DNA of 31,801 bases from Spirogloea muscicola (lineage: Eukaryota; Streptophyta; Zygnematophyceae; Spirogloeales; Spirogloeaceae), in assembly GCA_009602725.1 (NCBI GenBank), contig WELB01000023.1, positions 943,097 through 974,897 on the forward strand, read 5' to 3'. How positions within the stretch are numbered: position 1 is the stretch's first letter; the number at the start of each line of letters is the position of its first letter. The position numbers were made by a program, and so were the translations under genes. The notes below the pieces were generated by a model. That model had not been told where the DNA came from. It searched no databases and saw only the letters and a program-made list of their open reading frames with translations. Below, in pieces: positions 245 through 31,801 of the stretch.

Positions 245-297
245 GATAACCCTAAACCCTAAACCCTAAACCCTAGCCCTAAACCCTAACCCTAATT
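245..297 (+). repeat. Telomere-type CCCTAAA tract (short, degenerate)
   Basis: About seven units of CCCTAAA, with two variant units (CCCTAG, CCCTAA), run without interruption. CCCTAAA on the plus strand is the C-rich strand of the TTTAGGG telomere used by land plants and by Chlorella. In this orientation the chromosome end would lie to the left. However, 244 bp of non-telomeric GC-rich sequence sits on that side, so the tract is either interstitial or joined to foreign sequence by assembly. It directly abuts a truncated copy of the dispersed repeat at 300. Confidence 0.85.
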
Positions 298-299
298 CC

Positions 300-490
300 T
301 CGACATCTTCTGTTGAGCAGCCTCAGGTCAGAGAATCTACAGTCTCCGGGTAGCGGGTGCCCTGGCCAAAGCCAGAGGCTGCGCGACCGGCACGCAGGCA
401 GACGCAACGAAGCGTGCCATTGACCGATGCAGCGAGACTGACGGGCGCATGCCACACACCTGAGCGAGAGAGCCTGCTGCGTCGAGGAAT
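300..490 (-). repeat. Dispersed SDLxLLTRGY repeat, copy 1 (truncated)
   Basis: On the minus strand this matches the copy at 690-880 along its length. Shared blocks on the plus strand include TGAGCAGCC(T/G)CAGGTCAGA (314 and 704), AGCCAGAGGCTGC, GCGACCGGCACGCAG and TGAGCGAGAGAGCC. The offset between the two copies is about 390 bp, so they form a head-to-tail pair. The motif end reads SDLRLLNRR here, without a stop codon. The roughly 120 bp lying beyond the motif in the second copy is missing and is replaced by the telomere-type tract. No intact ORF is present. Confidence 0.75.
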
Positions 491-574
491 GCGGCTGCTG
501 ATGTTGCAAGAGCGGCTGTGGAAGCCAGCCAGGTGCATACAGAGGAGAGGGTGTTCATAGAGAGGAGGGCATTT

Positions 575-885
575 CCGGTAATGGGCGATGGCTGTGATCG
601 GCCAGCCCAGGGACGAGAATGGACAAACTTCGAAGGGGTCAGAAAAGCGCGCCGAAGCACACAGCGATTGGAGTGGCCACTGGGTGCTCAATATCCCCTT
701 TTGAGCAGCCGCAGGTCAGACGCCTAGTCGTCGAGTAGCAGGTCCCCTGTCTGTAGCCAGAGGCTGCAGCCAAAGCGCGACCGGCACGCAGATGCAACGC
801 GTGTGCCATTGACCGCCGCAGCGAAACTGATAGGCGCATGCGATACACTTGAGCGAGAGAGCCCGCCGTTGACATTCATTTTTCC
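575..885 (-). repeat. Dispersed SDLxLLTRGY repeat, copy 2
   Basis: Minus-strand reading gives the family block RAGRALAAASG, then, after a one-base frame change, SDLRLLKRGY and a TGA stop (codons at 720-688). Beyond the stop lie the tail modules shared with other copies: a GACC/TTTGTCCATTC segment and the palindromic motif at 583-609 (GGCTG...CAGCC arms). Because the frame is broken within this copy it does not encode the whole conserved block today. It is similar to copies near 7.9, 20.8, 21.6 and 22.9 kb. Confidence 0.75.
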
Positions 886-3009
886 CCCTTGGCATCCTCT
901 GGACAGAGCGCTGCGCGCTAGCCCGTGCAGGAGCTCAAGTCTGCAAGGGCCGGAAGGTGCACAAAGCAGGATACCACTCTCCATGATCCGCATGTGGGGC
1001 TAGACAGCCTCTAGTCAACAATCAGATCAGAATGACTACCGGGCGGAAGAGCGTCGTCTGGCGGAATCCGGAGGCAACACCCAAGGTGCAGCCTGCCCGC
1101 AAGTGGACGGCAATGCCAAGGACCGCTGCTTAGAAATTAGAAATGGCAAGCCACACACGCACAACCGAGCCAGCAACCCGGCGGTGTCAAAGAGCCCCTC
1201 TTTTTTTCCTTCCCCCAACTAATGAGTTTCACGCCCTTGCAGCAGCCTCTGGCTTTCTTTCTCTGGCTTGACGCAGCCGAGTCGCTCTTCCTCCCATCAG
1301 CTCATCTGGCATCCTATTGCCCACACAATAAAGAGGCTGCCCTGAACATCATACATCAGCAGCATGTGAAGTGATGTTGTCCCCGCCATAAGCCTCGAGC
1401 CTCAGGCCTTTTCAGCATGCATGTGCACCAGAGAAGAGGGCAAAAGAAGACACGGGGGTCCAATAGTTTCAAGTCAATGAAGGAGGGGACGATCTCCGAC
1501 CCCAGATGAGATCCTCCACATTGTCCTAGGGGGCCACGTTAAGCACAGTAGATGTACTCCGCAATCTTGTATAAGGTTACAGTTGCAGCCCAATAGTCAC
1601 GCAATGCTGCATTCTAGAGGCAGTGCTTGCCTGACAATGGGAACACGGAAGCTGTGCGATCAGGAATGGCACAGTCCATTATTTGCTTATGGCAGCATAT
1701 TGGAGTGCTGCTGCACAGACACGGGAGCACCTGACGCATGGACAGGTACATACAGCGGCGTCAACTGTGACTCAGCTCTGTAAGGGCGGGGCTTGCTTGC
1801 CAACGCAGCCTGAGTCAAGGTGCGAGCATGATTTGGCTTGACTGCATGGGCAAGTTTATCGTCCATCCAACCTGTTCCGGTCTTGCTGCTTAAAAACCAC
1901 CGTCCAAAAGTGATGCTACATGAGACATGATACCCCCTCCGCACCTATCCTCACACCTTCTGCGCAACAATCTGTGACTTCATCCAAGTGTGATGGTGCG
2001 GAGCTGCCGCCCATTGCCACCATGACGAAAAGGGCACTACAATTGTGGTGCCGAGAAGCGTCCTGCTTAGGTCCCTCCTCGGCATCAGATGTTCATGGTG
2101 GGCAAGTGCTGCTCCACGTGGTTGAAGCCTTCCCAAGTCTTGGTCAGGCAATCCAAGGCAGAATCCTTAAACAACATTGACATCTCCCCCTCTCGGCCAT
2201 CCGCTTCTCCTCCTTCCAAACCGCGCTCCTTATTCTCCCTTTTAAGAGCCCAAGTGGTGCACACCTGTGGTTGACACGGAGTACCCTGCAGGAGCAAGCC
2301 AAGAGAGTTCCATCTCCTTCAGAGAACTGCTTGGGCTCTACCCAGCCAGCCATCACGTAGCCCTCATTTGACTACGTTGTAGCTTCTCTTACCACTGCAC
2401 TCACAGGAAGCCTGCTCTGACTCAATTGTTTGCGCACATGCTCGCAAAGTTGAATCCACCACCTGCATACCTTCAGAATAAAGATGTTTTCACCTTCAGG
2501 TCAGAAGCAGGTCTTGCAATGTAAAGTCAGGCCCCCAAGTGATGCTTGCGCAGTGCACATTGCCAAGGTTTTTGCAGCTGCAACATTCTGAGACTTCAGT
2601 AGCTCGTGCAACAGTGACGACAGGATACATGCAGAATGACAACCTGTCCGCCTACTGTGCTACCTTACGTCCGCAGCAATGCAACATAACTGGAAGCAGA
2701 AAGGTCACAAGATGCACATCAAGGGCTTACCTTGAGATGGAAGTCGTATTTGTTCTCTGCTTTCTTTAGTCAGCCACAACATCGAGCAGCTCATCTGACA
2801 GTCTGCGCTTCCTTGTGGGCAATGAACGACATTTGTCGGCCTTGTGCAGCGCAGCTGGCCGATGTGAGCAAATCTTCTAGCTCAAACAGCCACGTGTTGT
2901 GCCAGGCAGTCGGCAAGACATTTCATCTGATTGCTTGGTCATTTGCTAGGGAGGGGCTGTGAAGTCATTCTGTGATGGCCCCCTGGGGGCGTCTGCGAAC
3001 GCCGCTGAG
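886..3009. other. Gene-poor interval, nothing recognised
   Basis: No open frame on either strand shows a recognisable family motif, and none is long enough to stand out in this base composition. Candidate frames (for example 1920-2180 plus and 1687-1944 minus) are short and have no plausible spliced neighbours. GC content is visibly lower than in the repeat-rich left end. The right part presumably contains the 3' UTR and polyadenylation region of the minus-strand INTS3 gene, but I could not place them. I saw no tRNA-like cloverleaf and no array of short repeats. Confidence 0.5.
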
Positions 3010-6000
3010 CTAGCTACGGTCCCGCTGCGCCTCCGCTAGAGAATTGCCATCACCTCCCAATTCTGTATGCTCCTTGGCAGGGTCCAACCGCTGCATCCCA
3101 GACGGGCCACCTGCAGGTGGGCTGCCAGCACCTCCCAACAGATGCTCGCTTGGCTCCTGCTTCACAGGAGCTGACTCCACGACAGTGTCTTCAACCGGGC
3201 TCCGCTTGCGGTCAGAGTTGGCGCTCCAAACACCATTGGGCAAGTGCTCGTGCTCGCCGTCCTTCTGCACAGGCTCGGCAGCGGCGCTGGTCTTGCCCTT
3301 CGCCGACTGATGCTGCTGCAGCAGCGTCACCAGGAGAGCGCGGTGGCTGGAGGACCAGATGCTCAGCATGGCCGCTGGGACCTGGTCAAAGGAGGGCGGG
3401 AGACCCAGGACAAGCTCAAGGAGCTGCGGAGCTGGCGCGCGGCACCGCAGCAGGGACATGAAGCCGACAACCGCCTCACTGTCGACCTGGGGGCGTATGG
3501 CGGCGATGACTGTGGTGAGCAGCCTCAGCAGTGCAGGCAGGGGCCATCGCTGCACCTCCGCTGCAAGCAGCTGCCAGAACCACTGCTGCTCCAGCGACTC
3601 CCAAGCAAGCGAGCCCTTCACCAGGCGCGCCATATCCACGTCCTTACTGCCGCTTCCCACAATGGCGACATCGCCAACATCGACTCGGCACAGCAGGCGG
3701 CAGAGCTCGAGCGGGTCAAGCGCCGACAGAAGGAGGTGCACGACCTCCTCATTGCACATCGTGAGGTGTGGCAAGTACTTGAAAACTGCCGGCAGCACCT
3801 GCAGCAGCCGATATGTGTTCCACAGCAGGCACGTTCCCAGGTCCGTGAGCAGGAGCTGCTGCAAAGACGGCAGCTCTGGTACACCTGCTGCCTTGCTGTC
3901 GCCAGCACTGCTGCCGGCTGCAGCTTCGCTTTTGCTCTCGCCCTCCCTTACTGCTGCTGCGCTGGTTGCAGCGGCTGTGGCGCCTTTCCTCTTTCCTACG
4001 TCCCGAAGGAATTCCTCGTAAGCCCAGAAGGCATCGGCCACTGCCGCCCGGCCTCGCCTGTGCATGTCTGACAACGCGCCACCATCTCTGACCTCCTCCA
4101 GAAGCTCCTCTGCCAGCCGAGGCTGCTTTTCTTCGCCTCTTGGGCTGGAGCTTGACGTGCCAGCTGTGCTCCCGCTGGCCAACCTCTCTGCAGTAGTTGC
4201 GGCTGCACGGTCTACTTCGCTTTCTGTCTTAACCGGAGGGGATGGGGAAGCCTGTGCAACAGCTGGCAGCCCCGCTGGCTCGTCCTGCACAGCGCCCTTG
4301 CCGGGCTGCTCCAACTGTTCAGCACTGTCCGGCACCTCGACTCTTGTCACAAGCTCCCTCTTCGAGGTCTGCTCCAGCTCCTCAGCGACTCTTGCGACAT
4401 AACAAAGAAGCCGCGTGCTGACAGCAATGCCCTGCAGCAGATTGTTGCAGTCACAAGCAGCTGAGGAGGGCCCCTTAAACCCTTGCAGAACTTTGTGCAG
4501 ATTGCACTATCACATACTCTGGCAAATGGAAAGCAGTCTGAAGCCTAGGTCCTGCAGCTACAATCCCAAACATTTCATTGCAATGGCTCCTCAGTGCTCC
4601 AGAGTCAGACTACCTGCTGCTGCCAGGTGGCAAGCAACTGCCGCAGCTGCGAATTCCTTGTTGCCACGAAGAGCCGGAAGAGGGTGGAGGTTACAGACAT
4701 TATCTCGTCGCCATCGGGCATTTCCGTTGGCAGAGAGCGCAGTGGTGCACAGACCTGCACGCCCAATACAGCAAAGAAACTTGGCCAAGACGCAGGTACT
4801 CAAGCAGCACAAACCTTGGCCAAAATGGTACTCAAGTGAAACACAGTGAACAGAATCAAGGTAACCCCTACTGCAAGACTTATTGAGAGGCGAGGGTAGG
4901 ACTTGACCTCAGCCACTTCAGCAGAGAACCTATCTGCAAGCAGAAGGCGCTGATTACCTGATAGCCAGCTTTCGAGAACACCTCCTCCATTTGCTTCGCT
5001 ACATCAGGGGCGTACAGCGGGGACGATTCCGGCACGTGGTACTTCCTGCCATTCGAGCGCGTGTCCTCGTGGCCAACTGCCATCCTGGGCTGCTGGCGGT
5101 CTACGCCAGCAAGCCTGGGGGCGGCCACCACCAGCTCCAGCAGCTGCACCAGGGCATCAATGACCCCCTGCTGCGACCCGGCCATGGCTTTGGCCAGCCG
5201 GTCCAGTCTCTCGTGCAGGTCAGCGGCCTCATTGTCAGTGCTCAACTGCCGTTTCCGCTTGAGGCTCCCTGCCAATGAGACAGACGGAGCTTCTGGTACC
5301 GCGGCGGCCTTCTCAAGAGGTCCGTTGGTGTCCATGTTGCCCTCTGTTGGAGTACTTTGAGGTCCTGCATTTCTTGGCGACTTTACATGCTCCCCAGGCG
5401 TGGACGTGCTCGCATCCACCAGCAGCCTCGCGACACCTGTGTCCGGAGGCCTGCTTTCACCCTGCGCCAGTGTTGGCAGCGGAGCTGCAGGGCGCGGGCC
5501 AAGCTCGGGCCGGCAATGGGCCGGGAACGCCGCCTGAAGCTTTTCTCGCAGCTCGGGGTGCACCAGTGGGTTGGCGTATAGCGGCTCCAGTGACCGCACG
5601 ACGCCCTTGCTGATGAGGATGTCGATTGACGAGGCCACGCCGCGCTCGATGAGCTCACGCCGTGGTGGATCGAAGTGCTCAACGAGCAGGAACAGGAACT
5701 GCAAGGGGCTCACTCAGTCGGCTCCAATCAGTGTGCAGGTCACCAATCCTTCTTGTGGCAGAGGGAGGCGCTCATCCTACACATGCTGACTCTGGTGACA
5801 GGGAGCGCGCCTGAGCTCAAACCTCAAGAAGGGTGTGCGTGAGGTCCACGTATTTCGGGATTGAGTACACCATGAGGAGGATGGCTGGCTCAATATTCAT
5901 GATGTTGTCGGACGCGCCGAAGAAGAGCCAGTCAAAGAAGAGCGCCAGCTTGGCATTGGCCTCAACGTGTCCCGACTTGACGCACTTGAGGAGCCAGCCA

Positions 6001-7649
6001 ACGATGGCCCATCGCGGCACGATGTCCGACTGCAAGATAGCATTGGGCGGGTGGTGCGCACAGCAGATGTAGCGGATGAGATCGCTGACCAGCGACTCGC
6101 TCTCTGGCGTCGACAGGAAGCGCTGTGCGAACCACGTCTGGTAGCGCCGCTGGTTGCCCATGCGCACGTGCGTGAGCATGAAGATGAGCTGCGTCTCAGC
6201 ATCTGGTGTGACGCGCGACACGACGTAGCGCACGGGCGTGCGCGTAGCGTAGAGCTGCTCGAGGCCTGAGAGGGAGGGCGCTGTCGCCTGAAACGTTGCT
6301 GCGTTGCATAACAGGTCGCGCCAGATGGGCTCGAACTCTGGCAGGCCAGCAACGTCCTGCAGCAGCCGAATGAGGTCGCGGCCAATCGCAAGGCAGTCCT
6401 GAAAGTGCTCGCGCAAGAGATGGCAGCAGAAGGCGGCCTCGCTCTGCCGCAGCCGCTGCTCGTGCTTGGCTGCCGCGTGGTCCGGCAGGAGCCGCAGGTA
6501 CGCGAACAGCGCAGTGGTCGCAAGAGCTGGGAGGTCCAAGAGCCAAGCAAGGTTCGACTGAAATACTTCCAGCAGTTGTGATGCGAGCCAGACATTGGCT
6601 GCACTGAGGTCACCGCCAGCCACCTGACGGAGCATGGCAAGCGCCAAGGCCTCGGCGTCGGCCACGGCGAGGCCGACGAGCTGCAACCACAAGTTGCAAT
6701 CAGCACATGGTCCCTCGCTGACAGAGGATGTTGTCACTGAGGTCAATGCACTCCTTGACGAATTCAAGTAGTAGGACTATCCCTAGCTGGCCAAGATCAT
6801 CTAGCTTCTGTGGTCCTTCCCCTGCAAGCACTGCACTTGCTCAGGCTGGGACGGTCAGCGAAAGCATGGTCCTGCGTACCTGGCGGAACACCCACACAGC
6901 TTGCACACGTGCAGCCTCCAGCAGCTTTGGCCACTTCTGCACGACCAAGTCCTGCGATAGGGCAACAGAAATGCCAATGAGAGGCAAGGCCAAGGACCTA
7001 TCAGCAGCAGTTGTGGTCATGTGTCGTGGCTGGCCATTAACCTGGCAAACAAATGCGCATGCATGCAGGTCCAGTACATAAACTTCTCCTCTGCATCCGA
7101 ATGCACAGTTACTCTGCGGCGACGGAACGAGAGAGGTCCGGCCAGCACAGCAGTGACTGGTGCAGCCCGGAGCAACCCCTGAGCTGTCCAGCACTGTGAG
7201 CACTGCGACAGCGAGCGCAGCGGCAGGCCATGACATTGCAGGGAGCGCTTCAGCGGACCTTGAGCGCAGCGGCGGCGGCGGCGTAGCCGTCGCGCGTCAC
7301 CGAGGTGAGGTACCCGAAGAGGCGGGGCGCCGCGGCGGCGTCGGCGAGCGCGCCGTACAGCAGGCCCTGGGCGACGTGGCCGTGCGCGGCGGCGGAGCCG
7401 GAGACGCGCTCCTGGAGGGCGGCGTGGATGGCACCCTCGGACGCGCCCGGATCGCCGAGCACGTCCTGCAGGCGCAGCCACTGCGCCTGCAGCGCGCGCT
7501 CGAGCTCATCCGGCGGCTCGAATGGGCCCCGTGCAAGCAAGACACCGGCGCCAGGGCCCGCGCCGACGCTGCCGCCGCCGTTGCCGCCGCCGCCGCCGCC
7601 GCTGCTGCGTCGGTGCAATGCGGCGGCGGCAGCGGTGGCGCTGGGGCAG
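3010..7649 (-). CDS. INTS3: Integrator complex subunit 3 (INTS3; plant DSP3), 5' end unresolved
   Basis: Helical scaffold subunit of the nuclear Integrator complex (snRNA 3' processing and Pol II termination); in animals it also anchors the SOSS single-strand-DNA complex. Coding exons in order: 7649-7259, 6951-6880, 6680-5823, 5698-4958, and about 4370-3010 (TAG at 3010-3012). The first three introns are phase 0 and family spacing is kept; for example VWVFRQ runs straight into LVGLAV...LRQVAGGD. Hallmarks in order are TRDGY, RQVAGGD, IGRDLIRLLQDVA, PEFEPIWRDLL, SDLIRYIC, DIVPRWAIVGWLL, NAKLALFFDWLFFG, IEPAILLMVYSIPK, LVEHFDPPRRELIERGV, then the C-terminal helical part with LTDLGTCLLWNTYRLL. 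An acidic, low-complexity linker of roughly 200 residues lies between the two halves. About 1,150 residues are visible (family about 1,000-1,050). No ATG exists in frame upstream of the poly-Gly N-terminus, so a first exon is missing or lies upstream, beyond the repeat at 7671-8142. Confidence 0.93.
7560..7640 (-). repeat. (GCC/GGC)n tract encoding INTS3 poly-Gly
   Basis: Trinucleotide-rich stretches on both sides of 7605 encode a Gly-rich segment just before the first conserved INTS3 residues (PPDELERALQAQW). Human INTS3 also begins with Ala/Gly-rich sequence, so this placement is family-typical. Its length is probably variable between strains. Confidence 0.6.
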
Positions 7650-7670
7650 CTTTGGCAAGAGTGAGATAGA

Positions 7671-7827
7671 GAAGTGCGCGCCCGTAGAGAAGAGGGGCTG
7701 GCAAAGCGAGCCCAAAAAAGAATGGACAATGTCCAAAGCCAAAGAAAGAGGAGCCGGAAAAAGGACTACACTACAAAACACTGCAGAACACACAGACGAT
7801 GCAGAGGGAAGCTCAGTACCCACGAGA
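7671..7827 (-). repeat. Dispersed repeat tail, inverted partner; left 103-bp arm
   Basis: 7725-7827 is the reverse complement of 8040-8142 with about four mismatches over 103 bp. The left flank, 7671-7724, continues as family sequence: it closely matches 22195-22250 (GGGGCTGG, then ...AGCCCAAAAA, then GAATGGACAA). The segment is thus the tail of a minus-oriented copy placed head-to-head with the plus-oriented copy to its right. It ends about 20 bp from the probable INTS3 splice acceptor at 7650-7651, and its pyrimidine-rich minus strand runs into that acceptor. Confidence 0.8.
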
Positions 7828-8142
7828 GACATCTAATGAGCTGGGCCGTGCTCCCAATGGGCCGCTTGAGTCGCTGTGTGCTTTTAGCTCGATCCGGCTC
7901 CTTCGTCTGGCCGTATCGCTTCAACGCTCCCTTGCCCAAGCCGTCCACACGCGAGCAGGCCGCGCTATGGCCGCCGCCTCTGGGTCTCGGCGGAGTGCCT
8001 CTTTCCCTGCAGCGAGCTCCTCAGACCTGATGGTGCTCACTCGTGGGTACTGAGCTTCCCTCTGCATCGTCTATGTGTTCTGCAGAGTTTTGTAATGTAG
8101 TCCTTTTTCCGACTCCTCTTTCTTTGGCTTTGGACATTGTCC
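7828..8142 (+). repeat. Dispersed SDLxLLTRGY repeat, copy 3, with intact 84-codon ORF
   Basis: Plus-oriented copy whose last 103 bp form the right inverted arm. An ATG at 7799 (inside the left arm) opens 84 codons ending at TGA 8051-8053. The protein contains LQRSLAQAVH, AGRAMAAASGS, SFPAAS and SDLMVLTRGY. Other copies encode the same residues with different codons. The ORF could be a real small gene, but its N-terminal part is antisense to the end of another copy, which argues for accidental openness there. An unresolved base (N) at 8143 follows the arm immediately. Confidence 0.75.
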
Positions 8143-8143
8143 N
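8143..8143. other. Ambiguous base at the edge of an inverted repeat
   Basis: This is the only N I noticed in the window. It sits exactly after the last base of the right inverted arm and before a CGG run. Hairpin-forming arms plus a CGG tract are a difficult template, so the local join between the repeat pair and the ISA2 5' region should be treated with caution. Confidence 0.95.
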
Positions 8144-8430
8144 CGGCGGCGGCGGCGGAGCCGTGTGGCGTAGCTCGCCCCGCCGCACGGCGCGCTAGCT
8201 GCCAGCCGAGGGCCGCAGTGCCCTCCCCGCGATGCGGCGCTCATTCGCAGGTGATCGGCGGCGGCGATGGCCATTGGCAGTCACTGACGCTTCTCCTCTC
8301 GTTGGCCTCCGCTTTCCTGGCTGTCCAAGCGCTAGTTGAGCTCATCTTCTGGCCGCGTAGCTCCTCGAGGAGCAGCAGCTGCAGGTTCGGGCCGGCCTGC
8401 CTGCTGGCGGCGCTCGTCGGCGCGGCCTGA
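8144..8430. promoter_or_regulatory. Divergent INTS3/ISA2 5' region
   Basis: GC-rich region between the minus-strand INTS3 and plus-strand ISA2. A candidate first exon for ISA2 is ATG CGG CGC TCA TTC GCA G at 8232-8250, followed by GTGATC as donor. On the opposite strand an ATG at 8274 opens a short frame that could hold the missing INTS3 start. Neither is supported by homology. No clear TATA box is visible. Confidence 0.4.
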
Positions 8431-14400: not shown

Positions 14401-15713
14401 TGGCCTCTCCCTCGAGGAGCAGCTTTTGGATCCACAATCATCTTCTGTGTGCATCTCTCCGCGCTCGAAAGGACGAGCTGGCCACTGGGCTGGCCGTCTG
14501 CTCCATGAATGGAGCAGGCGAGGTCCGTTGCCTGCAACAACTGCTGAGTGACCAAATGCTTCAAGCCGCCTCCGCATACACACTGCTCTTGCTGCAGAGG
14601 CGCGACTTTCTACCCCCCAACTGTGTCACCTGGCACGGCCTGACGCCCCTGCAGCCGGCATGGGACAGCCCCGACAGGTGCGGTGGTTGCTGTCCATGGC
14701 AGACAAGATGCAGCCAGATTGTCTTGTGCTCCTTTTGCTTCTTCGACCTTCGCAGGTCCTCTATGGTCGTTGTTTGCGCCATGCGATCCATGGCCATGCG
14801 GCCTGCTGCAGTACCTAAAAGACCCACGCTTGCCACCGCTGACGCCATTGCCTTTCTGTTGACAGCTGCTTCCTCGGATTTGAGATTCAGAGTGCGCCAA
14901 GCGGTAATGGTAGTCGCAAGCCCCGGCCTCCCGTCATCGCGGACCCAGACAAAGGAAACTTGTACATTGCCTTCAATGCTCACCACTACCCTGTCACGAT
15001 CACGCTCCCAGAAGCTTCCGATGGCATGGGCTGGTAAGCTGCTGAGCTGCCGTAATCGCTTTTGCTTATTGCAGTTGTTTCAAGCGTGCCTCTCGTGTCA
15101 CCCCCATGACCTGTGCAACACACCACTGAAAGCCGGGCCGTCAACTAACTGGGAAGCCATTCCTGATAGGTTCCGTGTGGTGGACACCTCCCTCAACTCT
15201 CCTCATGACTATGACCTCGGCGGCACGGAGATCCACCCGGCCGAGGAAGGGTGAGCCCTGCCACTCGCTCTTCTAGGTCCTTGTTTTGCTGCAGGTTGTC
15301 TGACATGCATTCACTCGCCTGCGAGCGCGATTGAGGCTGGCATTGCAATATCTCGTGCTGCAGCACAATGGCTCGTGCTGCAATGGCAAATCTTAGCAGG
15401 AGTTGCCGCAGGTCCGCTTAGTGTCAAGGAGGACTGAGCAAGTGGCCAGCTCTGACCTGCGGCGGTGTGCTGAAGTGGGCGGGCTAAGCTCACCAGACCT
15501 GCGCCGCTCTGCCTTTGCTCGTTGGGGGCCAGGCTGGAGTGCAAGTACGACCTGCAATCGTATGGCGCGCTGCTGCTGGAGGCGCGCATCCCTCTCGGCC
15601 CAGGGGGCGTGCGGCGGCCCCGCAAGGCCGCTGCCTCTGCAGCTGCCGCGCCTAGCCTCGACGCATTTGCCGTGCCAATACCGGCAAGGGCCGCCAGGGT
15701 CGCGGCCCCCTAG
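8431..15713 (+). CDS. ISA2: Isoamylase 2 (ISA2), non-catalytic debranching-enzyme subunit
   Basis: GH13 isoamylase family; in plants and Chlamydomonas ISA2 partners ISA1 in the plastid complex that trims phytoglycogen during starch building. Exons: ?-8895, 9097-9201, 9632-9774, 9934-10102, 10262-10378, 10501-10597, 10763-10847, 10994-11130, 11320-11389, 11529-11631, 11859-11974, 12195-12261, 12474-12674, 12855-12979, 13205-13300, 13514-13531, 13741-13804, 13947-14053, 14223-14331, 14598-14677, 14866-15033, about 15140-15250, 15533-15713 (TAG). Phases agree except at 15033/15140. The order is Ser-rich N-terminus, CBM48-like module (GRPEPLGCTWLADGSVNFAL), barrel, and C-terminal beta domain ending KYDLQSYGALLLEA. 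Catalytic motifs are lost: FRFD reads FSFP, the AE(A/P)WD region reads ADPSS, AHDGF reads ASYGF, and DVVFNH reads NVLYSH. This is the ISA2 signature. The start and plastid transit peptide are not resolved; 8431 is only the first codon after an in-frame stop. Confidence 0.93.
8678..8702 (+). repeat. (TCG)n microsatellite encoding poly-Ser in ISA2 N-terminus
   Basis: Seven or more TCG units lie in the ISA2 reading frame and encode a serine run upstream of the conserved YIMHVEGGGQ exon end. A Ser-rich, basic N-terminus suits a plastid transit region, but this is inference. Confidence 0.6.
12725..12758 (+). repeat. Perfect 17-bp tandem duplication in an ISA2 intron
   Basis: GATGATGAACATTGCCC occurs twice back to back (12725-12741 and 12742-12758) with no mismatch, in the intron after the exon ending at 12674. 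It has no effect on coding sequence and looks like a recent slippage or repair duplication. Confidence 0.9.
13514..13531 (+). other. ISA2: 18-nt microexon of ISA2
   Basis: Eighteen bases between ...TGCGCAG and GTGATTTG add exactly six codons and keep phase with both neighbours (phase 2 in, phase 2 out). Including it makes the protein read LVSFSSESEISWNSGEEG. This restores the length expected between the DLVSF and WN(C/S)GEEG motifs of isoamylase 2; skipping it gives LVSFSWNSGEEG. Confidence 0.7.
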
Positions 15714-16597
15714 CCCGCTCCCCCTCCTCGCCTCCCTCCTTCTCCCAGCCCATCGGCCGAGTGCAGAAGAGCTGACCCGCGTCTTGCAACTCGAGGAAGC
15801 TCAGGTCCCTGAGGCCTTGCCACCGGCGCTCCTGCTTGGGCAGCGCTTGCTGTCACTTTTGCTCAAGTACTCGCAAAAGTGCCAGTTGCAGAATTGTGAC
15901 TACAACACAGTGGAGGCAAGCGGCTGGAGCCTGTGCTTCGCTGCACTATCACAGCAGACAGCCAGGCTTACATTTTATTCCGCAGCCAATGACCTTGCAA
16001 ATAATTCGCCGCTCGTGGAGAATAGGGAGCCCGGTGTCTTTCTGACGCATACCCCATCACGGCATGTGGGACCTTGCTGCTGCCTGAAAACAGCAGGCTG
16101 CGACGATCGGCCATTGCGGCTACAGCACCGGACGAATGCAGCTATGATCAATTCGCTAGGTTCTGCACAGCTTGCATCAGCCAGAAGCACTGCAATAAGT
16201 GCGAATTGCAGTGACCACCACCGGCCCTTGAAGCAAGACGTTGCCAAGGTAGCTGCCTTCTGGGTGCTACTCTGCTGTGATGTGTTCTCCAGAAACTTAT
16301 TCACTTTGCCACACGTTCTTCCGTGGCAGCCACTTGTCCCCTTTTGGCAGGCAATCCAGCAAGGTGAGGGGCAGCAAATCTGCTGCCAGGCACTGGGGTT
16401 GCGGACACATGACCATGCTGGCCCGCTGGTGCCAGAAAAGTGACATGAGCAAGCAGCGCCCAAGCTGGGGCATGGAGCTGCGGGCATGGAGGTGCTGTTG
16501 AGTGCTGCAGCTGGAGGGGCAGGGGCGGAGAGGCATGCTGATGAGCTACTGTGCGCGCGAGCTTGTAGAAGCTCAAGCTCGCGCGCACAGTAGCCCC
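15714..16597. other. Convergent ISA2/MKK3 3' spacer
   Basis: The stretch between the ISA2 stop (15711-15713) and the MKK3 stop (16598-16600) has no frame with a recognisable product. It must contain both 3' UTRs. A TTACA at about 15970 would be a TGTAA poly(A) signal on the minus strand, but it is far from the MKK3 stop. The one striking structure is the hairpin at 16545-16594. Confidence 0.5.
16545..16594. repeat. Perfect 20-bp inverted repeat, 10-nt loop
   Basis: 16545-16564 is the exact reverse complement of 16575-16594, with the loop GTAGAAGCTC. The inner part can also pair as GAGCTT/AAGCTC. The arm contains GTGCGCGCGAGC, so the stem would be very stable in RNA or as a DNA cruciform. It begins three bases after the MKK3 stop codon on the minus strand and therefore lies at the start of its 3' UTR. 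There is no run of T, so nothing resembles a bacterial-type terminator. Confidence 0.95.
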
Positions 16598-19500
16598 TTA
16601 CCTGGGCAGCTTCTTGATAGCCAGCTCCTGCTTGGAGATCCAGAAGGACCCCTGCAACTCGCCTGACTCAAAAGTGATCAACTCCCAGAAGCTGCCCAGC
16701 TTGTGCTCTGGCCTCGGCGGGCCCTGCTGGTATGGCCGTCCCACGCCCTCCACCTGCGCGCCGTCCCCCGCCGGTATGAAGTGTGTACCAGCAACCAGGC
16801 TGCCAATCACCCGGACCTGGAGGCCATACTTGCCATCCGGCCGGCAGTCGAGAAACTCCACCGTGTGCACCAGCCGCTCGCCAGGGCGCGGCCCTGCCAG
16901 CTGGTTGCGCAGCTGCGTCAGCAGTGTGAATATCCTGGGCGCACCCTCATTGCGCTGATTTGCAAAACTGCACACGGGCAAAGCAACATGCTGCAGCTCG
17001 TCAGCCCATGCTCATAATGCTCTCTTGCCCGACCGCGTCAGTCATGGTCTGGAACAGGATCCCCTCAAGCTCGCTCTCCAACTCTTCAACCACCCTCCTC
17101 AACCCCCTCCTTCAAGCGGTGCACAGCAAGCTCAAAATGCCGCCGCCAATGATGCGAGCATCACTTGCTGATGAGTTTGAGCTTACACTAAGGTAGATGA
17201 TGGTCTGTAGAAGCTCTCCATATGCTTCCAGGAGCTGTTGGGGCCGTCAAATAGCATATAGTAGTGAATGGTTAACATCTGCACCAATGTGGAAACGCCT
17301 CAAAATTCAATCAGGACTCTCTTCCAAGTTGGCAGAAGTTGACAACCATCAGCCCACTGTAGAAACGCCTATTCAATCAGGACTCTAAGTTGGCAACCAT
17401 CAACATGGGCTGCCCCTAGTCATTGCCCATTCAGAGATTGATGTGTGCAATCCAAAAGTATGAATGGTCCGAAGACAGGACAGCTCAGCTGTGGCCTGTC
17501 TATCCATATGAGCAAGGACACTCAAGGAACAGCCAGAACATGCTCTGGAGTGGGATTTACATCTGACAGATCTTTCAGACGCTCGCAAGGATCAAAGACG
17601 CTGTGAATGAAGCTGGGAAGATCAACATCCGTGTTCTCGTACTTTCTTATGTAGGGGTGTTGCAGCAACTGCCAGGATGAAGAGGAGCTTTGAGTTTTGG
17701 CGAGAAGACAATTATGACACAAGGTGCAACATGTCAAGGTGCAGACTAGTATCAAAGCTCCACTTTCATTTACATACTGCCATAGTAGCTCTGCACCTTA
17801 GAGACCATGTTGATGAGAACCAGTAGATGTGTGAGTTGGACGTACTTCACATAAGTAGTCATCAGCAAGAGCAGTCACGTCTACCTGCTCTGCTGTTGGT
17901 CTTGCCCTGGAATCCTTGAGGAGACAAGCATCCACAAAGGACCGAAATTCCGGCGAGAACCTATCCGCAGGAGGGCTAGGGGAAGGGTCTTCCATCACCT
18001 GCACACAATTGCAGGTCAATGTGAGCCTAGCATTGATGGTGTATGCAACAGTAACAGGGACAGTATAACAACATTGGGATACTTGATCACCTTGATATCA
18101 TGAAGGTCAGTTGAAGGTCATTGCTCAACAGGCATTGTTTTGTGAATTTACGTGCTAGCTGCTTCCATTTGCTTGAAAGCCAGCGCAATGGAGCAATCAC
18201 ACACTAGCCTCAATCGATAGTCATGTCAGATGCACATGACAGACGAGGCAAAGTGGGAATAACCTGTAGCATGAGAGTGACAGGTCCTTTGTTTGCATTG
18301 TATGGAAATTCTCCTGTTCCGCATTCAAGCAGTGTCAAACCCAAGCTCCAGATGTCAGCTGGATATGAATACTGTTGATTGTTAATTCGCTCAGGTGACA
18401 TGTAGGTTACAGTTCCCACAAATGTTGCACACTGCATCGTCACAATTGATGGTATTCAGGATGGGACCCACTCTGGCCTCGAAGTTATTGCTGATTAAGG
18501 TCATTCGACAGTCAATCGCAGGCCTTGTGCAACGGATATAGTGCCTGCCAAATCAGGACAATGGACTGTGCAGGCAGATCGCTGGTCAAAAAGCTATGCA
18601 ACAGACACAACTACCTCATCCGTTCTACTGCACTCACCATTGCTATTGAGTTGTCAAGGCCAGCGCTAATCCCAAAGTCAGTGATTTTAGGTTCGCCCGA
18701 GAGATTCATCAGCAGATTAGCTGGCTTGATGTCACGGTGTACAAGGTGGCGACTCTGATGGAGATAGCAGAGGCCCTAGTCGTTATCAAAAGTACGAAAA
18801 AAGCATGTGTAAGAGCTCAGAGACCATGCAATTGTGCCCAACGTTGTGTGTAAATTAGCTTCACCCTGACCTCTACTTCACTTGAATAACTTGAGATCTG
18901 CATCCGTCACCATGACCAATCAGAGCAGCACTAGCTTTCACAGCGTGTTATGGAGTACATGCCATGCGCAAGAGATCTGGACACTTACGTGCAAGACTTT
19001 GCGTGTGATGACTGACAGAATAGGCTCTGGAATGATCTTTGCTTCGCGCACAACATCTGCCAACGATCCTCCGTCCATGTACTCAAGTGCAATGCTGATT
19101 TGACCACTATCTGGGGAATAGAATGCTCCATAGAACTCCACAAGACCTCGGGCATTTGGTGCCTCACAGAGTAGCTTAATCTCGTTCATCAAAAGGCTCC
19201 TCTTGTCCTGCTCTAGATCATAGGCAAGCCAGCAAGGTCAAGTAGAGCAACAATAGCAGACTGCTGTCTGAGCAGTCTACATACCAAATACATAAGCTCC
19301 TGCCCAAGGGACGGCCGAATGTGGATCAATGATAAACTGAAGCAAGTGCACAGACTGCTTCTCATGAGAACCATGGATGGTGGGTCTCCACATAGTTGGC
19401 TCGCTGTCTTTCAGTGTAGGAAGATTGAGAATGACGGTGACAGGTAGTAGCAAGATTGACAAGATCATATATAGCCACGGACGACAATCCACTGTTAAAG

Positions 19501-19850
19501 ACTAACATGCAAGCAGCTCTGCTGACCTTTTCAAAAACGTTGATCTTCTTGAGGGCCACAATCCGATGGGTTGGAATATGCACAGCTTTCCTCACCACAC
19601 TGCTAGCTCCGAAGCCAATTGCACCAAAAAGGCACATATCCTTTGAAGCAATCCGATAGTTGTATTCCCTGCTTGTTCCCTCTGCGTCCCTGTCATCACC
19701 TCGTGTGCTCACAACTCTCTGGAACTGCAGCCCTTCTGAGTTTATGGCGAAATCTCCCCTGGTTTGACTCTGCAGATTCAGAGTACCTTCATCTGACACC
19801 TGTAACATACCAGATTGAAAGTATTGATCAAATTGAGGCTTTTCAGTCAC
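16598..19850 (-). CDS. MKK3: MKK3-type MAP kinase kinase with C-terminal NTF2 domain
   Basis: Dual-specificity kinase phosphorylating MAP kinases, with the NTF2-like tail unique to plant group B MKK3. Exons: 19799-19527, 19207-18989, 18775-18638, 18431-18264, 17998-17885, 17668-17561, 17278-17187, 16967-16598 (TAA); all junctions keep frame. Kinase features in order: [11 protein letters not shown] glycine loop, ALKKIN (catalytic Lys), EYMDGGSL hinge, [15 protein letters not shown], activation segment NSIAMCATF giving the plant S/T-x5-S/T site, [17 protein letters not shown]. After the lobe come [14 protein letters not shown] and an NTF2 fold ([21 protein letters not shown] ... [10 protein letters not shown]). 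Order and spacing follow Arabidopsis MKK3. The N-terminus is unsettled: a stretch at about 19.89 kb reads [14 protein letters not shown] like the plant N-terminus but is not in phase with 19799, and the frame running directly upstream of 19799 has no ATG. A first exon near 20.14 kb is possible. Confidence 0.93.
17288..17410. repeat. Imperfect direct duplication in an MKK3 intron
   Basis: Two consecutive copies share TGT(G)GAAACGCCT, ATTCAATCAGGACTCT, AAGTTGGC and AACCATCA, the second copy shortened by three small deletions. The pair lies in the intron between exons 17668-17561 and 17278-17187. The unit is about 55-70 bp. I see no coding role. Confidence 0.8.
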
Positions 19851-20690
19851 AAGGTGCAGGCTTCTTTGCTCGGCTCAGCTCCTCCAGCCCGTATCTGCAT
19901 TGTTAGCTTCTTCCTCTCAGTAGCCAGGTGTCATTGTGTTTAGCAGCTAATGGACAGTTTGTACACGACAAGAGCAAAGGCACACGTCCTTGAGATGTAG
20001 CACTCTACAGGTGCAGGGATAGCAGTTGTCGCGCATCCTGCTATGTCTGCAGACCTGCAGGTCTACTGCACATGCTGTTACACAAGGGGTAGATGATCTG
20101 GCATAGACACCTTATATGAGGCCGTCACGTCAATGGACATATCAGACGAGTCCGGAGCTCTGGAGTTCAGGTCGCACATGAGCGGCGAAAGCCGTTTCTT
20201 CAATTGCTCCATTGCAACCATTCCTGCAGCAAGTGGCGCTACTTATGGGACTGCCTGTGCAGTGATCCTCCGCATCCTCATTGTGCGCATATCTGGCGCG
20301 GCGTTTCCACCAAGGACTACCCCTGGCCTCGGAAGCAGGTGCCAATGGCGCCAAGCGAGGACAGGTGTCGCCAGGCCGGTTCGCAAGCTGCACCGAGGCT
20401 CGCGGGGCGGGGAGGCGCCCGCGCTGCCGACTACCGCCTCGACGTCGACGCCGGCCGTCGATGGCAGGCCGGCCGTGTCAGTGAGGTCGAGGTGCTGCGC
20501 GGCAGGGAGCCGGGGCGAAAGGAGGCGCCGCGGCGGGCGGCGCGGGCGCTGGCCGGGGAGGTGGCGGCGCCGTGGCGGCCCTCGTGGGGCCCGCCTGCGA
20601 GATCGGATACCCGTCGCCACCGTCTCGGCCCACCAACGGGGCGCGCGCCGTCTTGGAAAGACACCCACTCCCTTTCCCTACTCGAGAACA
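19851..20690. promoter_or_regulatory. MKK3 5' region (minus strand), candidate first exon
   Basis: Upstream of the last confident MKK3 exon. On the minus strand an ATG near 20.14 kb opens a ten-codon frame (MSIDVTASYK) followed by GTGTCT, a usable donor. It could be the first exon, but no homology supports it. Beyond 20.3 kb the sequence becomes very GC-rich (Arg/Pro-rich frames on all strands), as in a promoter or 5' UTR. The long plus-strand frame at 20204-20926 has a biased composition and ends in a repeat copy; I do not call it a gene. Confidence 0.35.
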
Positions 20691-20759
20691 TAGCGAGTCT
20701 GGGATATGCACGACGCGAGGATATGCTCCCAGCCCAGATGGGTATGCCGGCAGCCTATC

Positions 20760-21060
20760 TGTCATTTCTGCGACGTCGAGTGTCAACCTGTCTGCAACGA
20801 GCTCAGGCGTATGCTCTGCATCAGAAAGCTGGTCGAGCCTTAGCTGCTGGCACAAGAGCTAGTCAATTGCCGTCCGGTATTCGAGCGTCAGCTAGCGACC
20901 TCTATGTGCTGACTCGTGGTTACTGAGCGGGTCAGCTTAGCAGCAGGTGACGTACATTTGTCCAATATGCTTGCCTTTGTACTTGGCCACACTTGGCCTC
21001 CCCATCTCTTAATATACACGCATTTCCTTTCCCGTTCCCCGCGCCGGCCGCTCATGCTCC
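20760..21060 (+). repeat. Dispersed SDLxLLTRGY repeat, copy 4
   Basis: Reads QRAQAYALHQKAGRALAAG, then ASDLYVLTRGY and TGA at 20924-20926. Relative to copy 3, AGRA is encoded with four different codons and LTRGY with two synonymous changes. A second module follows: TCAGCTTAGCAGCAGGTGA, then GCTTGCCT(T)TGTACTTGGCC. It matches the minus strand near 23.47-23.57 kb. Confidence 0.7.
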
Positions 21061-21299
21061 AGCACGAGCCGGTGGGGTTAATAAATAGTGGGGCGGGGTG
21101 GACGGCCGACACCCACGCCCGCCACGACTGCGCGACGGCGGAGCACATGCCGGAGGCGCCACGCCCGACAGCCAGGGTTATAGGCGCTTATTTAGAAGAA
21201 CTATATACCTTTTCATGCCTTGTGTCAGCTTTTCCCGTGGATACTTACGTACACTGGTAGCTGAGACACCTTAGCATAGGGCTGCCTTTCATGTAGCCT

Positions 21300-21810
21300 C
21301 ACATTTTTCACTAGCCTTTGCCTGACAGTGTGTTGGCTTGTATTTGGCCACCCTTTCAATTCATGCGTACGGCACACCTCCTCTCTCTCGTCCCGTTTCC
21401 TCTGGAACTTGTCATTCGTGGGCTGGCCTTCGAAGCCCTCGCCGCCTTTGCAGGAGCTGCGTCTTCTGAGGCCGTCCATCGTCAGCAAGGACAACAAGGT
21501 GAGCTGCCCGTCTGCAACGCCGCCAGGTCGCTTGCCAAGTTTTTCCGCATGAAGCTAACTGATTTCTTCCTTTGTTCCCAGGCTCACGCAGAGCACTTGC
21601 GGTCAGACCGTGCTTTGGTTGCTACTTCTGGCTCTCGTTGGGGTGCCTCATTTCCAGCTGCAAGCACTCCGACTTGCGGCTGCTGACTCGGGGTTACAAA
21701 GCTCCCGTTCGCTGTAGTCTCTTGTATAGCTGTGTGGTTTTGAAGCTTTTTGGACCTTCTCCAACCTTTCTGGGCTGGCTTCCTGCAACCCCCGTCCATT
21801 AGGAAGAGCT
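21300..21810 (+). repeat. Dispersed SDLxLLTRGY repeat, copy 5
   Basis: Contains RALVATSGSRWGASFPAAS in one frame and, after a one-base shift, SDLRLLTRGYKA, where the usual stop codon has been lost. The tail has the GGACC...TTTCTGGGCTGGC module seen in other copies. Upstream, GGCTTGTATTTGGCCACCC resembles the ACTTGGCCAC module. The frameshift and missing stop mark it as decayed. Confidence 0.7.
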
Positions 21811-22380
21811 CACTTCTTCTTCTGAGGCGCGCGCGCTGCTCTTGGATTCAATCAAGTGCGACCATGACAAAAAGGGAATGTGCTCGCCCATAGAGAGTGG
21901 CTGTGGTGGCCGCAGACCGAAAGTAAATGTACGGAGTGTCGTGGAATGGCAGCGCCGACGCAGCAGAGCACCGCCGGACGCGACAAGATGGAGGGGCGGG
22001 AGTTTCCGAAGCGATTTGGCTGTACTGGGCCATCCCGCGGTACACCGGCGTCAGTGGCTCGACAAGTCGGTCGATTACGAGTGTTGGCAGCCGCTGCCAT
22101 TACGTGAGAAGCCTCGCTGCCGTCGTCGCGTATCATTGATGGAAGCGCGACTTGCCCACGTGCGCGGCAGGCAGCGCCGGCCCTTGAAGAAAGAGCTCGC
22201 CCATTGAGGATAGGGGCTGGAACAGCCAGCCCAAAAAGAATGGACAAAGTACGAGCCCTTGGGCTCGCTGCGCGGCCCAGCTGGCGTCGTCCACCGGCTA
22301 TTCTGCCTGGTGCACAGATTGTTCTGACTTGATTTAGCGGAGCCAGAGTTAAAGAAGGGCTCGCCCATCGCTACTCCCAT
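21811..22380 (-). repeat. Partial copies of the repeat tail
   Basis: GCTCGCCCAT occurs at 21882, 22195 and 22359. The middle one is followed by GAGGATAGGGGCTGG, then CAGCCAGCCC and AAAAAGAATGGACAAAG, matching 7671-7728. The middle example forms a GGGCTGG/CCAGCCC hairpin. No conserved SDLxLLTRGY block is attached, so these are fragments. Confidence 0.65.
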
Positions 22381-22489
22381 CCTGGCTGTGTGCTGGGGAA
22401 GTGCAAGCGCATTCCTTCCGAGAATTCGTAGCTGTGAGTTCCCGCCCAGCCCAGTGAGAAAGCAAAATCCTCAAGAATCTCAAGAAGGG

Positions 22490-22570
22490 ATTGATCTGGC
22501 TGCCCCGCTCGCAATGGAGAAGCATCTGTTCAGAGGCATGGCTGTGAAAGGCCAGCCCATAGGTAATGGT
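22490..22570 (-). repeat. Partial copy with palindromic GGCTG motif
   Basis: Contains the motif GGCTGTGAAAGGCCAGCC at about 22540-22557 with the same flanks (ATG before, CA after) as those at 583, 22811 and 23173. The sequence downstream is not shared. Confidence 0.6.
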
Positions 22571-22739
22571 GGAACCGAAACAGCAACCTCACGCATGGAC
22601 CTTCCTGAAATAGGTTGACCGAGTTGGGCGAGAAGGCCCACGGCAATGGAGCGATAAGGAAGGAATGCCTCAAGTGAAGGCACTTACACTACCACATATA
22701 GTATACATCTGGCGAAAGCCTAGTGAACAAGGTCCAGAT

Positions 22740-23095
22740 TGAGCTTCTCAGGAGGGTATGGAGTGTGTAGTGAGTGATGGAGGGCATGAGTGGCCAAGTC
22801 CAGGGGGGGGCAATGGCTGTGAAAGGCCAGCCAAAAGACAGACGTGACAACGCCTAGAAGGGGCCAGAAGCGCAAACCTACACATCCACGCACGTGGCTA
22901 CAACGACTGGGTGCTAAACTACGCCTAGCCAGCAGCTGCAAGTCAGAGTAGCTTGCAGCCGGGAAAGTGTCACCACTCAGAGACCCAGAAGCAGCAGCCA
23001 ACGCACGGGCTGCCTGCAAGTGCGGTGACAAAGCAAGGGAACGCTGGAGCGAGAGTGCGCCAGGTCCAAAGGAGTGGGAGAGTGTAGAACGCACT
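22740..23095 (-). repeat. Dispersed SDLxLLTRGY repeat, copy 6
   Basis: Minus-strand frame reads SLQRSLALSPH, ARALAAASGS, FPAAS and SDLQLLARRS, with the stop lost. The Phe-Pro-Ala-Ala-Ser block uses different codons from copy 3. The tail holds the palindromic motif at 22808-22832 and then ACTTGGCCACTCATGCCCTCC, which is closely matched on the minus strand at 23455-23510. Confidence 0.7.
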
Positions 23096-23200
23096 ATGGT
23101 AGCCTGCTCAGTATCCCCTGGTCAGCAGCTGCAAAGTGGGAGAAACCAGCTAACACAGTCCTTTCAAAGTAAGGCGATGGCTGTGAGAGCCCAGCCCGCA
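23096..23200 (-). repeat. Dispersed repeat, copy 7 (short)
   Basis: Minus strand reads LQLLTRGY followed by TGA (codons 23134-23108), using AGG for Arg and GGA for Gly. The upstream RAGRALAAASG block is not recognisable here. A palindromic motif lies nearby at 23173-23199. Confidence 0.65.
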
Positions 23201-23342
23201 TGGAACAAGGACCAGCAGCCGGACCGGCCAGCCCAGTTATGGACGACAGGGGCGCTCGCGATGATTAACAGCTTTCTCCAGATGGAGGCGAAGGATGTGG
23301 AGGCCAAACCAATGAGGACAAAGTGGCAATGGCGCGCGGTGC

Positions 23343-23377
23343 GCATATATTGAAATATATATACATATATATTGAAA
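23343..23377. repeat. AT-rich near-palindromic tract
   Basis: A 35-bp A/T island in GC-rich DNA, made of ATATATTGAAA twice around ATATATACATATAT. The centre is close to a perfect palindrome. It lies 415-450 bp upstream of the CCT1 start codon. It could be a distal promoter element, a cruciform site or simple microsatellite; nothing decides among these. Confidence 0.7.
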
Positions 23378-23439
23378 GGGAAGCCAGTATCAGCCAATAC
23401 TCTGTTCAGGCTTCAGTGCAAGAGTGGGGCTACGTAAAA

Positions 23440-23640
23440 CGAAGCCCTACGCGAAGGAAGATGGAGCGAGTGTACTGCGTGACGGAGGGCCTGAGTAGCC
23501 AAGTACGGAGGCAAGCACATTGACAGATGTGTACATCACCTGCTGCTAAGCTGAGGGGGGCATGAGACTGGACAGAGGCCAGCTCGCGCACACTGCTCGC
23601 GCGGGTTACAGACAGACGAAAGGGCTCGCCCATTGAAAGG
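23440..23640 (-). repeat. Dispersed repeat, copy 8 (second module)
   Basis: On the minus strand this begins ATGGGCGAGCCCTTTC and continues through TCAGCTTAGCAGCAGGTGA to CCGTACTTGGC, the module that follows copy 4 at 20931-21000. The shared peptide reading SLAAGDVH is spelled with GAT/GAC and CAC/CAT differences. It lies directly upstream of CCT1. Confidence 0.65.
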
Positions 23641-31538: not shown

Positions 31539-31801
31539 GGTTTCGGCCGAAGGACCGCAGTGCGGCGGCGGCGGTGGCGGCGATGGCGGTGGGGCCAAGC
31601 CCCCGGTCGCCTGCAGGGCGGCGTGACCCGCGGGCCGCGGCCTTCGACGGCGGCGGCGCCGGATCTGGCTGCCGTCTAAGGGCAGCGGCAGTCGGGGCGG
31701 CGGTGGCGTCCTGGCGGCGGGGAGAGAGCCCACGGCGGGCCCCGCGTCCTGCGCTGGCGCGGCTTCATGGCCAGCGCCGCCGCTCGCGCGGCGCCGGCGG
31801 G
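31539..31801. promoter_or_regulatory. GC-rich 5' flank of the bZIP gene
   Basis: Very GC-rich CGG/GGC-repeat sequence upstream of the bZIP start codon, with no recognisable coding sequence or TATA box. It probably includes the 5' UTR and core promoter of the minus-strand gene, and it is cut off by the window edge. Confidence 0.4.

Follow-up and report, generated by a model that had tools for sequence, protein, structure and literature searches.

R2-like retrotransposons as the probable source of dispersed repeat copies that share a C-terminal peptide in an alga-like genome

Repeat copies in the window and their shared peptide end

The window analyzed here is a stretch of 31,801 nt of an alga-like genome (C23:943097-974897), and the genome searched with it comprises 153 Mb in 471 contigs. 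The window carries dispersed copies of a repeat that very probably represents the 3' end of a group of retrotransposons. A sequence-only reading had described six copies sharing a ten-residue ending, preserved through synonymous codon changes. Translation recovers the ending SDLx(L/V)LTRGY in three of the six, all on the plus strand: SDLMVLTRGY-stop (8020-8053), SDLYVLTRGY-stop (20893-20926) and SDLRLLTRGY (21670-21705), where the frame continues with K and has no stop. The other three, on the minus strand, are decayed forms, namely SDLRLLKRGY-stop with K replacing T (688-720), (SPT)LQLLTRGY-stop with SDL lost (23108-23134), and SDLQLLARRS, in which both RGY and the stop are lost (22906-22946). 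TGA followed directly by GC occurs in four of the six copies, matching the earlier count, and a profile search of the window confirms the upstream RAGRALAAASG and SFPAAS blocks. The sequence-only reading was correct in substance and overstated in detail.

Profile matches fall at 738-872, 7901-8050, 20747-20923, 21516-21665 and 22924-23058, with weaker ones at 409-483 and 1010-1159. Seven fragments beyond the six listed copies were mapped on both strands by blastn against element representatives, and a nest of fragments spans 20.7 to 23.6 kb of the window (Table 1). The subfamily labels M1, M2, L, H, RN, RT, RV, RS, F and Y are names of this analysis. The coding end of the copy at 7904-8142 is 96.7% identical to M2 over 150 nt. 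Four other matches (7271-7738, 30731-30859, 31442-31708 and 31555-31763), with 60-67% identity to the sequence that encodes the proline-rich N-terminus of locus L031, probably arose by chance in GC-rich DNA and were set aside.

Table 1. Element copies and fragments mapped in the window (UTR, untranslated region; ORF, open reading frame)
Positions	Strand	Feature	Basis
294-480	-	old 5'-truncated copy, C-terminal ORF end and 3'UTR, nearest RS subfamily	blastn L032 72%, L055 70%
652-951	-	old copy, terminus SDLRLLKRGY-stop at 688-720, RAGRALAAASG block upstream (738-872)	profile, translation, blastn
945-1192	-	old copy, nearest H subfamily, two in-frame stops within 1010-1159	profile, blastn
7665-7829	-	young M2 copy: last codons, 3'UTR, hairpin tail	95% to M2 copy L012
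7904-8142	+	young 5'-truncated M2 copy, ORF end 7904-8050 (...SDLMVLTRGY), stop 8051-8053, 3'UTR cut at N 8143	95% to M2
20676-21025	+	very young 5'-truncated Y insert, 350 nt; SDLYVLTRGY-stop at 20893-20926; 3'UTR to 21025	comparison with L077
21206-21386	+	F-subfamily 3'UTR fragment	69-70% to L070/L033
21425-21820	+	old M/H-like copy, SDLRLLTRGY without stop at 21670-21705	translation, blastn
22176-22268	-	tail-only copy, RS-type hairpin tail	77% to L032 overall; 91% to L055 over 70 columns
22789-23106	-	old copy, decayed terminus SDLQLLARRS at 22906-22946	profile, translation, blastn
23108-23134	-	remnant of a further copy: LQLLTRGY-stop	translation
23364-23457	-	F-subfamily 3'UTR fragment	69% to L070
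23484-23554	-	Y-subfamily 3'UTR fragment	85% to L077

The two young M2 copies lie in opposite orientation with 74 bp between them, and the right one is cut off by a lone N (8143) that may mark an assembly join. Elsewhere in the window, a short interstitial (CCCTAAA)n telomere-like array occupies 245-295, in the interior of contig C23 and not at a contig end. A near-perfect hairpin with arms of about 20 nt at 16545-16594 matches mir-3622 under the gathering score. Rfam and tRNA scans gave no match for the repeats, the only rows being four miRNA-like ones under Rfam gathering scores.

Long parent frames and their predicted domains

Copies of the repeat are scattered over contigs. With positions 7800-8100 as DNA query, 86 matches were obtained from the best 40 of 2,340 first-look candidates. 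About half of these are short matches to an inverted arm, and 39 places besides the window align at 94-96% identity, starting at about query position 96-112. A hand-joined C-terminal protein query gave 20,648 first-look candidates; all 150 of those that were scored have E < 1e-56, and the C-terminal repeat is far above chance. The reverse transcriptase query gave 1,322 first-look candidates, again with 150 scored, and the two rough candidate counts agree with 5' truncation.

Several copies at the 14 loci read run upstream into one long open frame. A first alignment of these loci with the window copy was too repeat-rich to place boundaries, yet it exposed the upstream ORF. Counted from stop to stop with start codons unassigned, the frames extend over 1,418 codons in L031, 1,325 in L032, 1,316 in L033 and 1,267 in each of L077 to L080; the long frames of L027 and L028 are mostly N and were left out. 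The search for a long parent ORF that the sequence-only reading had proposed was successful, as frames of 1,267-1,418 codons share the same terminal motif, ending in SDLMLLTRGY (L031), SDLFVLSRGY (L033) or SDLYVLTRGY (L077). The exception is L032, whose frame ends in SDLRLLSRDKGKGQGRGEPFFPY; at L032:5209-5250 this long RS-type frame lacks RGY-stop and continues to a new stop. Other loci end in SDLLLLTRGY, SDLHLLTRGY, SDLHLLSRGY, SDLRLLSRGY, SDLFVLTRGY, SDLRLLTRNY or SDLRLLTRTY, and the consensus in most subfamilies is SDLx(L/V)L(T/S)RGY-stop. L029 has a 5' chimera (1086-1400), in which by eye an apparent out-of-frame M-type nuclease fragment is joined upstream of a reverse transcriptase frame of the RN/RT type, and which reads as a product of template switching or nested insertion.

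The window itself could suggest a short non-autonomous element with a chance frame, either a short interspersed nuclear element (SINE) or a miniature inverted-repeat transposable element (MITE), with 7724-7829 and 8037-8142 as its terminal inverted repeats. The two intervals do form an inverted pair with 106-nt arms, and the 39 copies of the first search have a near-equal left edge. The terminal-inverted-repeat reading of 7724-8142 was nevertheless rejected after mapping: each arm belongs to a different M2 copy, the two copies point in opposite directions, and the left copy has a tail of its own. The left edge at 7904 marks where the window copy itself was truncated, because other copies extend further upstream into the ORF. 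With codon-structured divergence and long parent frames also speaking against it, a SINE or MITE origin of these copies is barely credible, although SINEs with the same tail may exist besides.

The long frames encode a reverse transcriptase. Pfam RVT_1 was found in all four frames scanned (L031, 2.5e-13; L032, 8.3e-16; L033, 2.3e-15; L077, 1e-18), and the (Y/F)ADD box is present in the alignment as YADDT or FADDT. The best PDB sequence match of the reverse transcriptase region is the R2 protein 9nl3 (E 3.3e-4), and R2 and L1 are the only proteins of long interspersed nuclear elements (LINEs) met in these searches. The same Pfam scans of four frames reported no apurinic/apyrimidinic endonuclease (APE) family, no RNase H family and no Myb match. 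A CCHC zinc knuckle with the spacing CX1CX11-12HX3C in the aligned subfamilies lies at the expected place between the reverse transcriptase and a putative restriction-like endonuclease (RLE). The predicted order within the single long frame is a candidate zinc finger, reverse transcriptase, zinc knuckle and R2-like RLE.

Assignment of the C-terminal nuclease draws on two predicted structures. The first, built by AlphaFold with 15 sequences for the 310 C-terminal residues of L031, has the element order helix-strand-strand-strand-helix-strand. Foldseek returned 387 matches at E <= 10; the three that remain at E <= 0.001 are all R2. VIA-align placed seven R2 chains on top with Z of 12.5 to 10.2 (model residues 23-290), followed from 7.4 by spliceosomal chains, which we take to be Prp8. 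The second model covers the reverse transcriptase to the end (779 aa, 14 sequences) and gave 158 matches at E <= 10; the seven at E <= 0.001 are again all R2, the next match having E 0.48, and structural alignment yielded Z of 15.9-13.1 for R2 and 8.0 for the next. Identity in the R2 fold alignments is 13-19%. The residues E130, D151, D166 and K196 (A1 numbering) are invariant, also after adding the Y subfamily, and D151-x14-D166 is compatible with the RLE spacing, PD-X12-14-D. At the level of fold, the models thus predict a C-terminal nuclease of the PD-(D/E)xK type. Model confidence is low for the terminal decamer. It is well conserved but not uniquely so: across four full frames, 154 of the 1,409 ten-residue windows are conserved at least equally, as are 18 of the 219 that fall in the C-terminal part.

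The same copies might alternatively be the C-terminus, alone seen, of an APE-type LINE related to Zepp/L1 or RTE, or of a Dualen/RandI element. In the accessible parts of published surveys, the LINEs assigned to green algae belong to these groups (L1/Zepp, RTE or RTEX, and RandI/Dualen; PMC3446292, PMC8226300, PMC3747384), and Zepp is likewise described as nesting (PMC3446292). The absence of APE and RNase H families from the four frames argues against such an origin, as does the full-length Y element, whose 3,974 nt carry one frame of 1,267 codons, have space for one long ORF only and show the single-ORF organization of RLE LINEs. Full-length copies read have no second long ORF upstream, and the C-terminus is predicted to fold like the RLE of R2. 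We consider an APE-type or Dualen origin very improbable.

Recent amplification, insertion sites and selection

The Y subfamily is very young and recently amplified. The full-length copies L077, L079 and L080 share both ends and differ in their flanks, and over the 3,801-nt frame L079 and L080 show no difference and L078 a single difference from L077. Among 150 places scored from 13,403 first-look candidates in a Y protein search, 130 (window included) are exact to the window's 59 aa, and the 1,267-codon frame is found at 8. Counting of Y 3' ends gave 546 in the genome versus 0 in the reversed control.

Insertion left duplications at some places. The Y insert at 20676-21025 has two differences from full-length L077 and abuts an 8-bp duplication, CCTTTCCC. 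Both ends could be resolved at 21 distinct Y places, and 6 of these have perfect target-site duplications (TSDs) of 7-10 bp, L090 among them being ambiguous as its flank is still Y-like; five further loci gave no end by the script pattern, and two duplicated counted places. The 10-bp duplication of L083 is located in an RS-type tail. At 14 M2 loci, a looser test gave convincing duplications at L012 (10 bp) and L014 (9 bp), both by eye in another element's hairpin tail, and an 11-bp duplication surrounds a tail-only insert at L027, also by eye. At 26 distinct Y 3' junctions, the T-run is followed by C in 25 and then by a pyrimidine in all 26. One more Y place, L095, also has C at the junction, and in the window background the base after ATT+ is C in 182 of 586 cases. 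Examined inserts lie in varied sequence, several of them inside other element copies, and not at one 28S rDNA site as in R2, although the 28S genes themselves were not searched.

Elements end here in a hairpin tail or in CATTT. The hairpin GGGCTGG(C)...CAGCC(C), mostly followed by a short pyrimidine run, ends the M, L, H, RN, RT and RS copies and some F copies, whereas Y and other F copies are without it. An RS-type tail is present in the F copies L070 and L071 (1158-1350 in each) and absent from the F copies L033 and L069, a difference that suggests tail exchange between families. The pattern TGGGCTGGCN{2,7}CAGCC has 9,465 + 9,402 = 18,867 genome matches versus 2 + 1 in the reversed control. 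Loops such as CCTCTCA or CCAATCA set many hairpin tails apart from those of the long-frame subfamilies read here, and further families or SINEs with a common hairpin tail are likely. Among the first 100 listed matches, 22 of 99 same-strand gaps are below 500 bp versus 3.9 expected at random; such clustering is consistent with nesting and equally with any other clustering. Compared with shuffles, the fold energies of four tails gave z of -2.63, -1.47, -0.45 and -0.77, so that the M2 tail (-2.63) alone stands out. By eye, an outer RNA stem enclosing the hairpin appeared compensatory, but it was rejected after a partner-permutation test (mean best helix 6.49 vs 6.47; 91 of 200 permutations equal or higher; 79 dereplicated tails).

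Substitution counts confirm that codon changes between copies tend to keep the residue. Over 186 nt, M2 and M1 are separated by 19 changes that are synonymous and 3 that are not (dS 0.51, dN 0.023), and other subfamily pairs range from 0.03 to 0.59 in dN and from 0.28 to saturation in dS. For comparison between subfamilies, 16 further M-type rows of 76-94% identity and at least 70 nt were taken, gapped rows kept; two match their nearer reference exactly, one of them because it is the reference itself, and the 14 counted show 191 synonymous versus 70 non-synonymous changes, with 50, 27 and 184 at codon positions 1, 2 and 3. Within M2, 35 copies of at least 94% identity were compared after excluding the overlapping L015, the gapped L049 and matches below 120 nt. 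They carry 60 distinct changes, of which 50 are private (17 synonymous, 31 non-synonymous, 2 stop), and the 17 synonymous ones fit a simulated neutral mean of 14.6 (p 0.28). A dN/dS near 1 with changes even over codon positions, the pattern named in advance as speaking against selection, is thus not seen between subfamilies and is nearly reached within the young M2, where third positions are still in excess. We read this as probable selection on source elements followed by near-free decay of copies once inserted, as dead 5'-truncated copies of selected source elements should decay near-neutrally.

Low dN/dS between subfamilies (0.023/0.51 for M2 versus M1) and the third-position excess even in young copies could also reflect a host multigene family, or a domesticated retroelement protein, under host selection. 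The young copies argue otherwise, with synonymous counts that fit neutrality and two stops among their changes. Copies are cut at differing points and some are flanked by TSDs, and 3' ends counted for a single subfamily already number in the hundreds. Host selection as the cause is hardly tenable. The sequence-only reading had left a choice between a mobile-element protein and a multigene family for a C-terminal end whose 5' part is mostly lost. Long frames, RVT_1, the R2-like nuclease fold and TSDs at some truncated copies support the mobile element, and given these findings a multigene family is not needed.

An R2-like group and its relation to known elements

The copies are almost certainly 5'-truncated inserts of related subfamilies that form one group of R2-like RLE retrotransposons without long terminal repeats (non-LTR). 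The group is large, recently active and visible through its 5'-truncated 3' ends. The nick that the element protein would make in the target falls at a short pyrimidine site, C and then C or T on the element-carrying strand, and cDNA synthesis would be primed at the 3' end of the element's own RNA, as in the target-primed reverse transcription of R2. The hairpin tail may be recognized by the element protein, by analogy with the "stringent" LINEs as described in part of one review (PMC3747384). Reverse transcription would usually halt early, and because copying starts at the tail and stops early, an insert would retain the ORF end and 3'UTR with the rest lost. Conservation of the peptide would follow because source elements need the whole protein, while dispersed copies would afterwards decay nearly unconstrained.

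Several observations weigh against this interpretation. Both models are of modest confidence (mean pLDDT 61.6 for the 310-aa and 55.1 for the 779-aa model), and the root-mean-square deviation (rmsd) of the larger one from R2 is 16-20, which makes its relative placement of domains unreliable. A sequence profile of the nuclease region matched no chain among PDB sequences, so that the RLE assignment rests on fold and position, and the classical PD reads AD, VD or LD in these elements, with P absent. The knuckle departs from the CX2-3CX7-8HX4C spacing published for RLE LINEs in the accessible part of the source (PMC5678591). Candidate zinc fingers are weak, with zf-C2HC_2 in L077 at E 4e-4 and 20.5 bits versus a cut-off of 27, and zf-C2H2 in L031 and L032 far under the Pfam cut-off. 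Perfect duplications are missing by the same test at 15 of 21 Y places, and 12 of 14 M2 loci have no convincing one. Not every hairpin-pattern match is tied to the subfamilies read here. Among private M2 changes, third positions make up 26 of 50 versus 16.5 expected (p 0.005), an unexplained excess.

It is unusual for an APE-less RLE element to be this abundant in an alga-like genome; the spacing of the knuckle and the nesting are unusual as well. Tentatively, the group might represent a new, unnamed green-algal clade of APE-less RLE LINEs, a proposal that we hold to be possible though somewhat doubtful. Such a clade would be characterized by a C-terminal extension with SDLx(L/V)L(T/S)RGY-stop at its end and by the CX1CX11-12HX3C knuckle. 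Its endonuclease would favour a minimal pyrimidine site (C-Y), and because their own 3' tails supply this site, its families would nest in one another and exchange a shared hairpin tail, reaching thousands to tens of thousands of copies. Pattern searches for relatives in a prokaryotic contig collection (79 matches, none by tblastn) and a viral one (35 matches, none confirmed) gave no relative and say little about algae. In the open-licence literature, which was covered in part, we met no description of an APE-less RLE LINE from a green alga, and absence in print is not implied. If the assignment is true, a broadly inserting APE-less RLE element with near-identical full-length and very many truncated copies in an alga-like genome would extend the known range of RLE LINEs. 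It would also offer a natural comparison for relaxed target choice in R2-type nucleases. Target choice of these nucleases matters for R2-based gene insertion. A visual clue alone, a peptide kept through synonymous codons, can locate the 3' end of a transposon ORF.

Comparisons with published elements draw on the available portions of the cited papers. Green-algal LINE clades are listed as L1, RandI and RTEX (PMC3747384). Dualen/RandI is described as a green-algal LINE group with an RLE, whose 3' tails are shared by SINEs (PMC4640811, PMC3747384). It encodes an APE as well (PMC4640811), and in this Dualen/RandI of Chlamydomonas differs from the four frames here. Zepp of Coccomyxa forms nested clusters, one per chromosome (PMC3446292); it belongs to the L1 type, and its end is listed as poly(A) (PMC3747384). 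Relatives of Chlamydomonas carry both Dualen and ZeppL (PMC8226300). Zepp and ZeppL of Coccomyxa, Chlorella and Chlamydomonas share with the present elements the habit of an algal LINE in nested clusters (PMC3446292, PMC8226300), whereas the inserts here are spread over contigs, and their ends consist of a hairpin tail or CATTT. Utopia of oomycetes is the subject of a further report (PMC5348765). RLE LINEs are mostly target-specific, with non-specific members included in the HERO clade (PMC4640811), and BLAG of cockroach comprises R2-like elements that are not site-specific (PMC7650587). Compared by description only, BLAG and HERO resemble the elements here as RLE-type LINEs inserting at many places, and differ in that their known members are described as animal elements (PMC7650587, PMC4640811). 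R2 itself, with structures from Bombyx mori, Taeniopygia guttata and Platysternon megacephalum, has the same order of reverse transcriptase, linker, zinc knuckle and RLE, and alone gives fold matches at E <= 0.001. R2 inserts also show 5' truncation (PMC7650587), as do the elements here. R2 differs in knuckle spacing, in the lack of a Myb match here, and in using one insertion site, whereas the inserts examined here sit in varied sequence and inside one another.

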